Positions 6,835 to 11,239 of a DNA stretch of 45,474 bases are shown one piece after another. Below the pieces are notes generated by a model that did no database searches, was not told where the DNA came from, and saw nothing but the letters and a program-made list of their open reading frames with translations. The stretch is from Gemmatimonadota bacterium (GTDB lineage Bacteria; Gemmatimonadota; Gemmatimonadetes; Longimicrobiales; Gaopeijiaceae): assembly GCA_015664885.1 (NCBI GenBank), contig DQPL01000046.1, forward strand, positions 1 through 45,474. The letters run 5' to 3'. A program made the position numbers and the translations under genes. Each line of letters begins with the position of its first letter. The first letter of the stretch is position 1.

Positions 6835-7443
6835 TCAGTACTTGCGGATGACTCCCACTACCACGCCTTGCACCCGAACATCGGTAGCATCGACGACGAT
6901 GGGCTCCATGGTGGGGTTCGCTGGCTGCAACCGTATCCGTCCGCCGGGCTCCCGGTAGAGCTTTTTGACCGTCGCCGCTTCGCCCGACACGAGCGCAACG
7001 ACCATTTGCCCGTCCTCCGCCGACTCCTGGGCTTGCACGACGATGTAGTCTCCGTCCCGGATCTGCTCCTCGATCATCGAGTTGCCCTCGACCCGCAGCA
7101 CGTAGTTGTCCTTTCGGCGGCGTACCATGTCCGGAGGCACGGCAAGCGTCTCGTTGTCTTGCACAGCCTCGATGGGCAGGCCCGCCGCGACCGCTCCGAG
7201 TAACGGCAGTTCGATAGAGGGCTCACCCTGGCCGGGTCTCACGAGCTCGATGGAGCGGCTCTCATTGTAGGACTTTCTTATATAGCCCTTGCGCTCCAAA
7301 TTGCTCAGGTGCTCGTGGACCGTCGCGAGCGATGCGTACCCGAAGGACTTCGCGATCTCCTCGAAGCTCGGGGCATAGCCCTGATTGGCGATGAAGTCGC
7401 CGATGTAGTCGAGGATTTCTTTTTGTCGCTTGGTCAGGGGCAT
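6835..7443 (-). CDS. lexA: LexA repressor
   Basis: SOS-response repressor that self-cleaves with activated RecA. From the ATG at 7443 it has 202 residues: a winged helix-turn-helix (about 1-65, MPLTKRQKEILDYIGDFI) and an S24 peptidase domain. The cleavage bond Ala87-Gly88 lies in GAVAAGLPIEA; Ser122 (VEGNSMIEEQI) and Lys160 (AATVKKLY) form the dyad. The recognition region ASLATVHEHLSNLERKGYI looks more like Gram-positive LexA than E. coli LexA, so a GAAC/GTTC-type box is expected. An in-frame ATG at 7458 would add MESKG. The gene lies antisense between trpD and trpC. Its upstream region carries repeated GAAC words (separate entry). Confidence 0.95.
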   Translation of the reverse strand: MPLTKRQKEILDYIGDFIANQGYAPSFEEIAKSFGYASLATVHEHLSNLERKGYIRKSYNESRSIELVRPGQGEPSIELPLLGAVAAGLPIEAVQDNETLAVPPDMVRRRKDNYVLRVEGNSMIEEQIRDGDYIVVQAQESAEDGQMVVALVSGEAATVKKLYREPGGRIRLQPANPTMEPIVVDATDVRVQGVVVGVIRKY

Positions 7444-7466
7444 TCCCTTGCTCTCCATTCCCAGGT

Positions 7467-7502
7467 GAACCCGAACAGGAACCGAAGTAAGGTTACCCGA
7501 AC
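7467..7502 (-). promoter_or_regulatory. candidate LexA operator region: repeated GAAC words upstream of lexA
   Basis: On the plus strand GAAC occurs at 7467, 7473 and 7479 (exact 6-base steps) and again at 7499. GGAACC at 7478-7483 and GGTTACC at 7491-7497 form an imperfect dyad around 7 bases. GAAC/GTTC is the half-site used by Gram-positive and alphaproteobacterial LexA proteins, and LexA normally represses its own gene. The cluster begins about 24 bases upstream of the lexA ATG and ends at the presumed trpC start, so it could affect both genes. The spacing does not equal a known consensus (CGAAC-N4-GTTCG or GTTC-N7-GTTC), so this remains a candidate. Confidence 0.45.
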
Positions 7503-7503
7503 G

Positions 7504-8331
7504 TTGCCCGAAACACAAGATCCTGCCTCGCTTCCTGGCGTCCTCGCGGACATCGTGAGTACCAAGCGCGCGGAGCTGCGGGCGCTTCAGGACCGAGCGC
7601 CCGAGCTCGAAGCCGCGCTCGAGCAGGCGCCTGAAGTGCGCGACTTCCGGGCGGCCATCTCGGTCCCTGGCACGGTTTCTCTGATTGCCGAGTGCAAGCG
7701 GCAGTCCCCAGGCGCCGGGCCGATTCGTCCCGCGCTCGAGCCTGCCGAGCTCACGAGGTCGTATGAGAACTCGGGGGCGGCTGCGCTCAGCGTCCTCACC
7801 GACCAGGAGTACTTCGGGGGCTCCAACCTGGACCTCGTCGAGATCCGGGGTGCGACGGCGATCCCTGTTCTTCGCAAGGACTTCACGCTCGATTCTCTAC
7901 ATGTGATCGAGGCGCGGGGGGTGGGTGCCGACGCGGTTCTGCTCATCGTGCGCATCCTGTCCGACGACGCGCTGCGCGGGCTCTTGAGGCATGCGGAGGC
8001 ACTCGGCATGCACGCTCTCGTCGAAACACACGATGCGTACGACCTGGAGCGCGCCATGGCGGCCGGCGCGAAAATCATCGGGATCAACAACCGAGACCTG
8101 GCGACATTCACCACCGATCTCGAGATGACGCTGAGACTCGTGGAGCAGATCACAGGCGACGCTGTCGTGGTGTCCGAAAGCGGGATTCGCGATGCCGCCG
8201 ACGTGGCACGCCTGGGCCAGGTCGGTGTCGATGCGGTGCTTGTGGGGGAGACCCTGCTCAGGGCTGCAGACCCCGGGGCGGCGGCCGCGGAGTTGTCCCG
8301 GGTCGCCCGCGTGGAGCGTGTCCATGCGTGA
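7504..8331 (+). CDS. trpC: indole-3-glycerol-phosphate synthase
   Basis: Closes the indole ring: CdRP to indole-3-glycerol phosphate. A TTG at 7504 gives 275 residues beginning MPETQDPAS, with the usual first helix LADIVSTKRAEL. The TIM-barrel blocks are present: IAECKRQSPGAG (catalytic Lys), VLTDQEYFGGS, PVLRKDF (catalytic Lys), ALVETHD, GINNRDLATF and VVSESGI. The frame is open further upstream but there it reads antisense to lexA. The GTG at 7555 would cut into the conserved first helix. A weak TAAGG lies about 12 bases before the TTG. trpF follows with an 8-base overlap. Confidence 0.93.
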   Translation: MPETQDPASLPGVLADIVSTKRAELRALQDRAPELEAALEQAPEVRDFRAAISVPGTVSLIAECKRQSPGAGPIRPALEPAELTRSYENSGAAALSVLTDQEYFGGSNLDLVEIRGATAIPVLRKDFTLDSLHVIEARGVGADAVLLIVRILSDDALRGLLRHAEALGMHALVETHDAYDLERAMAAGAKIIGINNRDLATFTTDLEMTLRLVEQITGDAVVVSESGIRDAADVARLGQVGVDAVLVGETLLRAADPGAAAAELSRVARVERVHA

Positions 8332-9010
8332 GACCCCGCTCGTGAAGATCTGCGGCCTCCGGCGCCGGGAAGACGTCGTCATGGCGGACGAGCAGGGCGC
8401 CGACTTTCTGGGCGTCGTAATGACCTCGGGATTCTCGCGCAGCGTCGAGCCGCGAGCCGCCCACGCGTTGATGGACGGCGTGCGCGCCCGACCGGTAGCC
8501 GTGTTGGTCGACGAGTCCGCGGACGAAGCAGAGAGAATGGCCGAGGCATTGGGTGCCCACGTGATTCAGCTGCATGGGCGCGAGCCTCCCGAAGTTCTGG
8601 AATCGCTGGCTCGACGAGGACATTGGTCTCTGTGGAAGGGCGTCCGGGCGCGAACCGTCGACGATGTCGTGGGGGCGCTCGACGAGTATCGCGGCCTTGC
8701 CGACGGGCTGCTGCTCGAGGGATGGAAGGAAGGCGTCGTAGGCGGTGGTGGTGTCCGTCTAGAGCTCGAGCCCGAGCCGGTCCACGAGCACATGTCCGAT
8801 GCTCAATACCTGATACTGGCGGGTGGACTGCCCCCCGCCACAGTACGAGCAGCGGTCGCGCGCTTCCGACCCGACGTGGTCGATGTGTCCTCCGGCGTCG
8901 AGTCCGAGGTCGGGGAGAAGGACCCGGAACTGGTGCACGCGTTCATCTCCGCTGCTCGGTCGGCGAGCTCGGCTGCGGCCCACCCCTCCGAGCAGGAGGC
9001 TCCGCCATGA
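8324..9010 (+). CDS. trpF: phosphoribosylanthranilate isomerase
   Basis: Amadori rearrangement of PRA to CdRP. 228 residues from the ATG at 8324, which overlaps the trpC stop by 8 bases. Family marks are [12 protein letters not shown] at the start (catalytic Cys), [14 protein letters not shown] in the middle and [10 protein letters not shown] ... VDVSSGVES at the end (catalytic Asp and the phosphate loop). The central [19 protein letters not shown] replaces the more usual LLD...GGTGKTFDW block, so this part is divergent. It overlaps trpB as ATGA. Confidence 0.92.
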
Positions 9011-10209
9011 GTGCTCCGACTCCTTCGCTGACGGGGCGTTTCGGGGAGTTTGGCGGCCGTTATGTGCCCGAGACGCTGATCAGCGCGCTGGACGAACTCG
9101 TCGTCGCTTACGAGGAAGCTGGACGGGACCCAGGCTTCGCGGCCGATCTAGAGCACTTGCTGACCAACTTCGTGGGGCGGCCCACCCCGCTCTACAAGGC
9201 CGAGCGCCTCGGCGCGGAAATCGGGCACCCGGCCGTCTATCTCAAACGCGAGGATCTCAATCACACCGGCGCGCACAAGATCAACAACACGATGGGGCAG
9301 GTGCTGTTGGCTCGGCGCATGGGTAAGCACCGGATCATCGCGGAGACGGGAGCGGGGCAACACGGAGTCGCGACCGCGACCGCCTGCGCGCTATTCGACC
9401 TCGAGTGCGTGGTGTACATGGGTGAGGAAGACATCGAGCGCCAAGCGCTCAACGTCTACCGAATGGAACTGTTGGGTGCCGAGGTCCGACCGGTTTCGTC
9501 GGGTACGCGGACCCTGAAAGACGCGACCAACGAAGCGATCCGGGATTGGGTCACCAACGTCGGCGATACCCACTACATCATCGGGTCGGTTGTCGGTCCG
9601 GATCCCTTTCCACGCATGGTGCGCGACTTCCAGTCGGTGATCGGTCGAGAAGCACGCGCTCAGATTCTCGAGGCTGAGGGCCGCCTTCCCGAAGTGGTAG
9701 TCGCCTGTGTTGGCGGAGGGTCGAACGCGATGGGTATGTTCTCGGAGTTCGTCCCGGAGGAGGGCGTTCGACTAGTCGGTGTGGAGGCCGCCGGGGAGGG
9801 CGTCGAGACCGGCCGGCACTCCGCTTCGCTCAGCGCGGGTAGGCCAGGTGTCCTGCACGGCTCGCTGAGCTATCTTCTGCAAAATTCGGACGGACAGGTG
9901 GCTCCTGCCCATTCTATTTCGGCAGGACTCGATTATCCGGGTGTTGGGCCTGAGCACTCGTACTTGAAGGAACAGGGCCGCGCGACGTACACGTCGGTCA
10001 CGGATCACGAGGCGTTAGAGGCCTTTCGTCAGCTCTCACAACTGGAGGGTATCATCCCCGCGTTGGAGTCTGCTCACGCCATCGCTTATGTGCTCCGTGA
10101 AGGCGCGTCGTACAGGGATGGCGGACCGTTGTTGATCTGCCTCTCAGGCCGTGGCGACAAGGACGTCGCCCACGTAGCCCGCGTCGAGGGACGCGGCATG
10201 CTGCTGTAG
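9007..10209 (+). CDS. trpB: tryptophan synthase beta subunit
   Basis: PLP enzyme joining indole and serine into tryptophan; works as an alpha2-beta2 complex with TrpA. 400 residues. It shows [15 protein letters not shown], the PLP lysine Lys91 in [24 protein letters not shown], the PLP-phosphate loop [10 protein letters not shown] and the C-terminal CLSGRGDKD. This is the standard TrpB1 type rather than TrpB2. It starts inside the trpF stop (ATGA). An unusual 75-codon ORF separates it from trpA, whereas the two genes normally adjoin. Confidence 0.97.
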
Positions 10210-10217
10210 GCGATGGT

Positions 10218-10445
10218 TTGACGGACGTCGCGATCGGAGTTGTCGCGCAGGTCAATTCCGATCTGAGCCTGCTGCATCGACCGACCATCCGCCTGATTTC
10301 GGACCCGCAGGGACAACCGCTGCCGAGACCTCGCACGGTCGATCTGTCCACGGCCGACCCGACTACCGGTCAGGTGCGGAAGATCATCAAGACCACAGAT
10401 CCACAGAGGTACGGGATCCGCGTCAGCGACTACCTACTGGCTTGA
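10218..10445 (+). CDS. small 75-aa protein between trpB and trpA, resembling an HD-GYP C-terminal tail
   Basis: Open frame from a TTG at 10218, 8 bases after trpB, ending in TTGA where the last TGA overlaps the TTG of trpA. This fit between two operon genes argues that it is translated. By eye, the residues HRPTIRLISDPQGQPLPRP, then VDLS, resemble the short beta-rich tail that follows the HD-GYP domain in some cyclic-di-GMP phosphodiesterases. No HD-GYP motif (HD...GYP) is present and no upstream frame supplies one. It could be a detached domain, a relic, or a translation-coupling spacer for trpA. The homology is recalled, not searched; function unknown. Confidence 0.6.
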   Translation: MTDVAIGVVAQVNSDLSLLHRPTIRLISDPQGQPLPRPRTVDLSTADPTTGQVRKIIKTTDPQRYGIRVSDYLLA

Positions 10446-11239
10446 TCTCTCAGGCGTTCGAGGCTCGCCGTTCGCAGGGTCGAGCCGCCCTCGTACCCTA
10501 CGTCACTGCCGGATATCCTGCGATCGATTCGACAGTGCCGCTCTTGGAGGCCCTGGCGTCGGCCGGGGCAGATGTGCTCGAGTTGGGCATTCCGTTCTCG
10601 GACCCGCTCGCCGATGGACCCACCATTCAGCGCTCCTCGTTCGCTTCGCTGGAGGGCGGGACGACCGTGCGTTCCGTGCTCGCCGACCTACGCGTGTTCC
10701 GCTCGCGAAACGCGACGCCGGTGGTGCTGATGACCTACCTGAACCCGGTGCTGCGCTACGGAATCGATTCCTTCCTGGCGGATGCCGTCGAGGCTGGAGC
10801 GAACGGCCTCCTCCTCACCGACCTGCCGACCGGTGCCGATCCAGGTCTGGAGGAGCGGGTCTCCGCGTCACCGCTCGACCTGATCCGACTCGTCGCGCCG
10901 ACCACTGATCCGGACCGAGTTCCCGAAGTAGCCGCAGGCGGTTCGGGCTTCCTGTACTACATCTCCCGCACGGGCGTCACCGGAGCGACGTCCGAGCTGA
11001 GGGATACTATCGGTGACGAGGTCGGCCGAGTGCGTGCGGCGGTCTCGCTACCCGTTGCTGTCGGGTTCGGGATCTCGACGCCGAAGCAGGCTGGGGAGGT
11101 CGCGGCGGTAGCTGACGGGGTCGTCGTGGGAAGCGCGCTGATTCACCTGCTCCAAGACGGGGAAATCGATTCTGCCGCCAGCTTCCTGTCATCCCTCCGA
11201 TCTGGCATGGACGCCGCTCGATCCGATCATTCTTCGTGA
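10442..11239 (+). CDS. trpA: tryptophan synthase alpha subunit
   Basis: Splits indole-3-glycerol phosphate to indole and G3P, passing indole to TrpB. 265 residues from a TTG start at 10442. The catalytic pair is Glu47 (VLELGIPFSDP) and Asp58 (LADGPTIQ). Other family blocks are VLMTYLNPVLRYG, LLTDLPTGAD, YYISRTGVTGA (phosphate loop) and VAVGFGISTP. The TTG overlaps the stop of the 75-codon ORF as TTGA. Its 3' end overlaps the convergent NFACT gene by 13 bases, so it is the last gene of the trp unit. Confidence 0.96.
   Translation: MISQAFEARRSQGRAALVPYVTAGYPAIDSTVPLLEALASAGADVLELGIPFSDPLADGPTIQRSSFASLEGGTTVRSVLADLRVFRSRNATPVVLMTYLNPVLRYGIDSFLADAVEAGANGLLLTDLPTGADPGLEERVSASPLDLIRLVAPTTDPDRVPEVAAGGSGFLYYISRTGVTGATSELRDTIGDEVGRVRAAVSLPVAVGFGISTPKQAGEVAAVADGVVVGSALIHLLQDGEIDSAASFLSSLRSGMDAARSDHSS

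Follow-up and report, generated by a model that had tools for sequence, protein, structure and literature searches.

What is a 75-codon open reading frame (ORF) doing between trpB and trpA? The locus lies in a stretch of 45,474 nucleotides from a Gemmatimonadota bacterium, hereafter the window, in which 8 nt separate the end of trpB from the ORF, and the trpA start codon overlaps the stop codon of the ORF (Table 1). A preliminary description of this DNA had recorded the arrangement exactly, with the 75 codons, the 8 bases after trpB and the TTGA; it had gone on to propose that trpA depends on the ORF for its translation, and that the ORF is either a captured HD-GYP fragment or a new TrpAB-associated protein.

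The reading frame and its source genes

The neighbours match their Pfam families, trpB to PALP (E 2.1e-44) and trpA to Trp_syntA (E 1.8e-82), while a Pfam search with the ORF itself returned nothing at E <= 10. The trpC/trpF and trpF/trpB junctions of the window overlap too. Overlapping stop and start codons are the arrangement of a translationally coupled pair, and the overlap suggests that trpA is translated from the ORF, as had been proposed.

Table 1. Positions in the window of the ORF between trpB and trpA (the scar ORF), its parts and its neighbours
Feature	Position	Strand	Remarks
lexA-like gene (presumed, from its sequence)	6835..7518	-	between trpD-like and trpC-like genes, on the opposite strand
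trpF (presumed, from gene order)	8324..9010	+	earlier member of the same tightly packed run
trpB	9007..10209	+	ends in TAG; start codon shares ATGA with the stop codon of the ORF before it
scar ORF	10218..10445	+	75 codons, TTG start, TGA stop; in-frame fusion of gene 1 start and gene 2 end
gene 1-derived start of scar ORF	10218..10237	+	joint within about 10229-10237, where both alignments overlap
gene 2-derived tail of scar ORF	10230..10445	+	about the last 71 of 471 codons
TTGA	10442..10445	+	trpA start codon on scar ORF stop codon, 4-nt overlap
trpA	10442..11239	+	265 aa, TTG start

An ORF similar to the presumed lexA-like gene stands in the same place in a distant relative (L261:1598-2257).

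The peptide of the scar ORF is matched in 56 of 59 genomes at E <= 1 (the window's own included); the strong matches are mostly the C-terminal ends of long frames, and the weak ones look like noise. Against G001, the only other genome of the same genus, it shares 72% identity (E 6e-30) with the end of the gene directly upstream of trpA. Given this match, and weaker ones to the ends of similar genes in many relatives, we regard the frame as beyond chance. In G001, as in many Gemmatimonadota, the gene order is trpB - gene 1 - gene 2 - trpA. Gene 1 encodes 581 aa with HEAT repeats and starts with a TTG 8 nt past trpB; gene 2 encodes 471 aa with an HD domain and a GYP motif at residues 320-322, and its stop codon shares a TTGA with trpA. 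The best HD-GYP matches of gene 2 in the PDB cover residues 219-384 and 217-384, and by its motifs and its likeness to solved members gene 2 is of the HD-GYP type, a putative phosphodiesterase. The scar ORF corresponds to residues ~401-471, past the HD domain, whereas the PDB matches finish by residue 387; it contains neither the HD metal-binding domain nor the GYP motif, which falls in the deleted part of gene 2. The likeness to an HD-GYP tail noted at the outset is thus borne out, in that the source gene matches solved HD-GYP proteins and the ORF is the stretch beyond them. In the structure model of gene 2 (mean pLDDT 77.6, parts of the HD domain <50), a strand at 394-397 is also among what the window copy has lost.

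How the two genes came to be one short frame can be read from the alignment with G001. When positions 10101 to 10560 of the window were aligned by BLASTN, the part up to about 10237 paired with the beginning of gene 1 and the part beyond about 10229 with the gene 2 tail; TTGACGGA is the start common to gene 1 of G001 and the window ORF. Since both ends align in this way, the ORF is an in-frame fusion of the two genes. The trpB-trpA gap measures 3165 bp in G001 and 232 bp in the window, so that about 2.9 kb are absent from the window genome relative to G001. That genome is in 136 contigs, with an estimated 99.26% completeness and 1.75% contamination; across its contigs, the search for the body of gene 2 and an orthologue of gene 1 returned only distant HD proteins and a weak partial gene 1 match. 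The flanks of the joint therefore match a longer intact locus whose missing part is absent elsewhere in the genome, as in a deletion remnant, and by this comparison it is close to certain that the window ORF originated by deletion of a native two-gene insert. On another contig, a 292-codon frame (L258, G000:C45:18495-18671) weakly matches gene 1 residues 101-161 (E 5.9e-7) and is perhaps a paralogue of the N-terminal part of gene 1.

The intact pair and its repeated loss

The intact pair is widespread. Among the best 80 of 332 gene 2 relatives kept from a scan of named genomes, 77 carry titles of Gemmatimonadetes, Gemmatimonadota or a subgroup, the other three being titled Gammaproteobacteria (L215), uncultured bacterium (L236) and Bacterium HR33 (L241). 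The full order trpB-gene 1-gene 2-trpA is present in 57 of these 80; in 7 the two genes occur with no trp gene in the vicinity, and 16 show a partial arrangement, mostly near a contig end. A sample of 200 genomes from the phylum contained gene 2 in 132, and its tail occurred in 88/102, 103/118 and 12/12 genomes of three other families. On this wide presence, the intact pair is native and old and the state of the window is derived. The preliminary description had called for a search of relatives at the same place, and would have counted its absence from all those with intact trpBA, or a disrupted frame in close strains, as a refutation. As phrased, this refutation does not apply, since many relatives carry the full-length genes in place of a small ORF and others nothing.

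Elsewhere the pair occurs apart from its usual neighbours. At ten loci (L093, L094, L095, L213, L214, L227, L234, L235, L240 and L256), gene 1 and gene 2 stand together with no trp genes near. The best trpA found elsewhere in G011, G020 and G051 is divergent, which looks as though trpBA had been exchanged and the pair had stayed behind.

Within the window's own family, where trpA was found in 112 of 121 genomes, the window is not the only place with a remnant. The 140 loci examined in the family and its order comprise 57 with the full pair, 8 with remnants and 51 where tblastn gave none; a further 19 run into contig ends, and 5 have no trpA. Dropping these 5 leaves 135 classified loci. Reading the gaps and scanning the loci classed as 'none' added four scars, G028, G141, G142 and G140, which with the window and the 8 tblastn remnants makes 13, every one in the window's family. 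At the remaining 47 'none' loci, no trace of gene 1 or gene 2 was recognised by reading the gaps and scanning 24 of the 51. G028, G141 and G142 were first recognised by reading the sequence; the scan, which took the 24 loci with a gap >= 30 nt and compared each with 200 shuffles, gave 0/200 shuffles as high for G028 and G142, 2/200 for G140 and 20/200 for G141. The scan did not recover G141, so its assignment rests on its gene 1-like start.

The scars take several forms. Nine of the 13 are one continuous ORF from the start of gene 1 into the end of gene 2, of 75 aa in the window (G000), 65 in G006, 77 in both G125 and G091, 345 in G137, 352 in G136, 140 in G131, 64 in G141 and 56 in G028, where the stop codon of gene 2 itself is lost and the frame is lengthened by a few codons. 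Two more, G014 and G033, are out of frame and, read by eye, retain relays of overlapping stop and start codons. The last two are untranslated vestiges: the tail frame of the gap lacks a start codon in G142 and is interrupted by a stop in G140. In G004 and G143, intact genomes of the same genus as G142, 64-67 nt lie between the gene 2 stop and the position aligned with the first codon of trpA.

On a tree of TrpB and TrpA, which leaves out L088, L089, L090 and L176 (divergent trpB/trpA) and the loci without trpB, scars stand beside intact sisters: G000 by G001 (100), G125 by G128 (96) and G131 by G129 (85). The pairing of G125 with G128 is why G006 is counted apart from G125, and the members of G136/G137 and of G028/G141 retain different parts, so that neither member can derive from the other. 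With G014 and G091 taken together and G142 and G140 set aside, the 13 scars still represent at least 10 separate events. Several lineages lost everything, for example G123, G124 and G126, where the stop codon of trpB itself overlaps a trpA start; a scar is thus not indispensable.

Two further observations concern loci outside this count. In L040 and L101 (genus g24), a trpB-trpA gap of ~90 nt ends in a four-codon ORF that starts with three ATG codons and whose TGA, read by eye, overlaps the TTG of trpA; this ORF may be all that is left of a relay. In two more distant families, searches with the tail gave 8 matches with open frames <=350 codons, of which 6 were fetched: contig ends interrupt L259, L260, L263 and L264, and L262 (G265) is a remnant of the tail with no trp match. 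The sixth, L261:5031-5562 (G392), lies between trpB and trpA and is a shortened gene 2 whose GYP motif is altered and whose ORF contains possible trpA starts; it stands outside the 13 and is probably another separate decay.

Why the frame stayed open

What, then, would have kept such a remnant readable? We propose the following course. From the ancestral order of trpB, the HEAT-repeat gene 1, the HD-GYP type gene 2 and trpA, one or more deletions in the window lineage, totalling about 2.9 kb, took out nearly all of both inserted genes and fused the opening few codons of gene 1 in frame to the last ~71 of gene 2, as the comparison with G001 shows. A ribosome finishing trpB would restart at the TTG of the scar 8 nt on, read through to the TGA and restart once more at the overlapping TTG of trpA. 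The scar would have stayed open because the trpA start codon sits on the gene 2 stop codon. The coupling of trpA to the upstream genes through the scar is suggested by the spacing of the frames. Because the scar products differ from lineage to lineage, the function that they share would most simply be translation itself, with trpA staying coupled upstream. We consider this account as a whole, a deletion scar kept open as a translated bridge to trpA, to be the likely one.

The strongest competitor is that the ORF is a leftover of the deletion whose frame is under no selection. G140 and G142 with their untranslated vestiges support it, as do the lineages that retain nothing; the proportion of readable scars speaks against it. 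In-frame junctions make up 9/13 of the scars against the 1/3 expected at random (binomial p = 0.009) and 9/11 of those counted as overlapping trpA (p = 0.0014), or 8/10 (p = 0.003) without the doubtful G028, whose overlap would need a CTG start. Among the scars found regardless of frame, namely the window and the tblastn remnants, 7/9 are in frame (p = 0.008). All these binomials treat the deletions as independent.

The overlap with trpA also speaks against a neutral remnant, although with less force than the counts suggest. A 4-nt overlap of the tail stop with the trpA start is present in the window and in 8/8 tblastn remnants, as opposed to 16/70 gene 2 loci (Fisher p = 1e-5, which is too small because the rows are related). 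The 70 loci are complete or contig-cut (13 are cut by contig ends, and two of the 70 are from G008), and scoring covered 4-nt and 1-nt overlaps only, so that some of the other 54 may overlap by more. The window and 7/8 of the tblastn remnants, moreover, fall within a clade in which 12/14 intact pairs on the tree already overlap trpA, and the association of overlap with scars is therefore confounded by ancestry. An NTGA overlap also arises easily once the frames fit, which weakens it as support for coupling. An exception in favour of the association is G033, which overlaps trpA although the intact G030, G099, G023 and G116, to which it is related, are without such an overlap.

Does the protein sequence show the relaxed constraint that a pure relay would predict? 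Among 21 pairs of our choosing, dN/dS between a scar and its nearest intact relative is 0.40 for G000-G001, 0.45 for G125-G128, 0.24-0.33 for three further pairs with G006 or G125, 0.08 for G131-G129 and 0.06-0.11 for pairs with G136 and G137; between the scars G014 and G091 it is 0.14. Over matched codons, 11 intact pairs give 0.05-0.27 (G000 columns), 0.08-0.43 (G125) and 0.09-0.53 (G006), so that of these three sets only G000-G001 lies clearly above its control, a point in favour of a neutral remnant, and the G125-G128 pair and the G006 pairs, the latter at 0.24-0.32, do not. The dN of G000 against eight intact relatives exceeds that of G001 in 7 of 8, by little. An earlier comparison of the scars with the last 100 codons of intact pairs (0.05-0.18) had appeared to support relaxation, and was set aside as a comparison of unmatched codons. 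With matched intact pairs reaching 0.27, 0.43 and 0.53, the argument is dropped except, weakly, for G000: relaxed protein constraint is not general in the scars. Taking both sides together, we find a neutral remnant unlikely.

Over its final 15 codons, the window ORF does not differ from G001. A constraint at the RNA level on the end of gene 2 was considered and rejected, as the last 15 codons of 11 intact overlapping genes, taken as a block, are synonymously unexceptional (57/452 windows as high). Some 20 to 10 codons before the gene 2 end, synonymous sites of the overlapping genes are more alike than in the body (0.80 and 0.72, compared with 0.55); in 20 non-overlapping genes, this holds in part (0.70 and 0.58, compared with 0.55).

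Less probable still, and in our judgement doubtful indeed, is that the tail of gene 2 remained functional as a small protein, for instance by binding TrpA or TrpB. The last ~20 residues are recognisable in most scars, the matched codons carry no general sign of relaxed constraint, and structure prediction gives the scar a fold of fair confidence (pLDDT 87.5, pTM 0.73). A fold search of this model against the PDB, however, gave 0/72 matches at E <= 0.001, and the strand modelled at gene 2 residues 394-397 is missing from the window copy. The nine fused products, from 56 to 352 aa, retain different parts, G141 only about five residues of gene 2, and this variation between lineages argues against one conserved protein function. 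The suggestion of a new TrpAB-associated protein is accordingly doubtful, given that the scar products of relatives have no common body, and the 75-residue product of the window is probably a by-product with no function in itself.

Two explanations can be treated briefly. Most of the genomes compared, the window's included, are draft assemblies, and the 136 contigs and estimated contamination of the latter might invite the idea of an assembly artefact; but the joint lies in frame inside a 45-kb contig, comparable scars occur in other assemblies and the body of gene 2 is not on other contigs, which makes an artefact very improbable. That the ORF was captured by transfer or recombination, as its likeness to HD-GYP tails had first suggested, is scarcely credible, because the full gene is native to the exact spot in relatives and deleted in the window genome, and the scar agrees at either end with the genes found at this locus in G001.

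Meaning and comparison with known systems

The deletion scar as a translated bridge leads to a broader idea, which we put forward tentatively and with a little more doubt than belief. The overlap of stop and start codons may act as an evolutionary ratchet, in which, once the stop codon of gene 2 has become the start site of trpA, the pair can be lost only if the ribosome still travels from trpB to trpA; the at least 10 deletions in the family would then tend towards readable scars, and gene 1 and gene 2 would form a signalling unit that is old in the trp operon of the phylum and yet dispensable. With natural deletions repeated at one operon site, it can be tested directly whether coupled translation restricts gene loss, and, if the ratchet is true, they are a natural experiment in how coupling limits the ways in which genes leave an operon. 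A small ORF in an operon may, by the same reasoning, be a scar that matters as translated sequence and not as protein. The locus also draws notice to a HEAT and HD-GYP pair within the tryptophan operon of many Gemmatimonadota. The window ORF alone is of modest interest; it merits closer attention as a member of a set of about a dozen parallel scars, and for the pair inside the trp operon, of which the literature listed gave no report.

Genes foreign to the pathway have been described between trpB and trpA before, in Flavobacterium, in Burkholderia and on one Sargasso Sea contig, and the accessible part of that report (PMC2395257), which concerns the same place as gene 1 and gene 2, mentions neither a HEAT/HD-GYP pair nor a scar. 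Among the matches listed for the open-access literature, the titles and abstract openings held no report of such a pair or scar between trpB and trpA. From the solved HD-GYP phosphodiesterases (for example PDB 5z7c, 4mcw and 4r8z), matched by gene 2 within residues 217-387, the window ORF differs in having none of the HD domain.

The proposed bridge has its closest parallels in systems in which the translation of one frame affects the next. The minigene mg2 of the axe-txe operon, as it appears in the excerpt available of PMC8708949, is likewise a short operon ORF whose translation affects the following gene; it consists of two codons in a toxin-antitoxin operon and its effect was shown by experiment, whereas the window ORF is a remnant of two genes. 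In E. coli, translation of trpA is coupled to that of trpB by a stop/start overlap (Aksoy 1984; Das and Yanofsky 1989, both as cited in PMC10666635). There too, going by the text available of that source, the trpA start overlaps the stop codon of the frame that precedes it in a compact trp operon, but the partner is trpB itself; in the window, the partner in the putative coupling is a leftover ORF.
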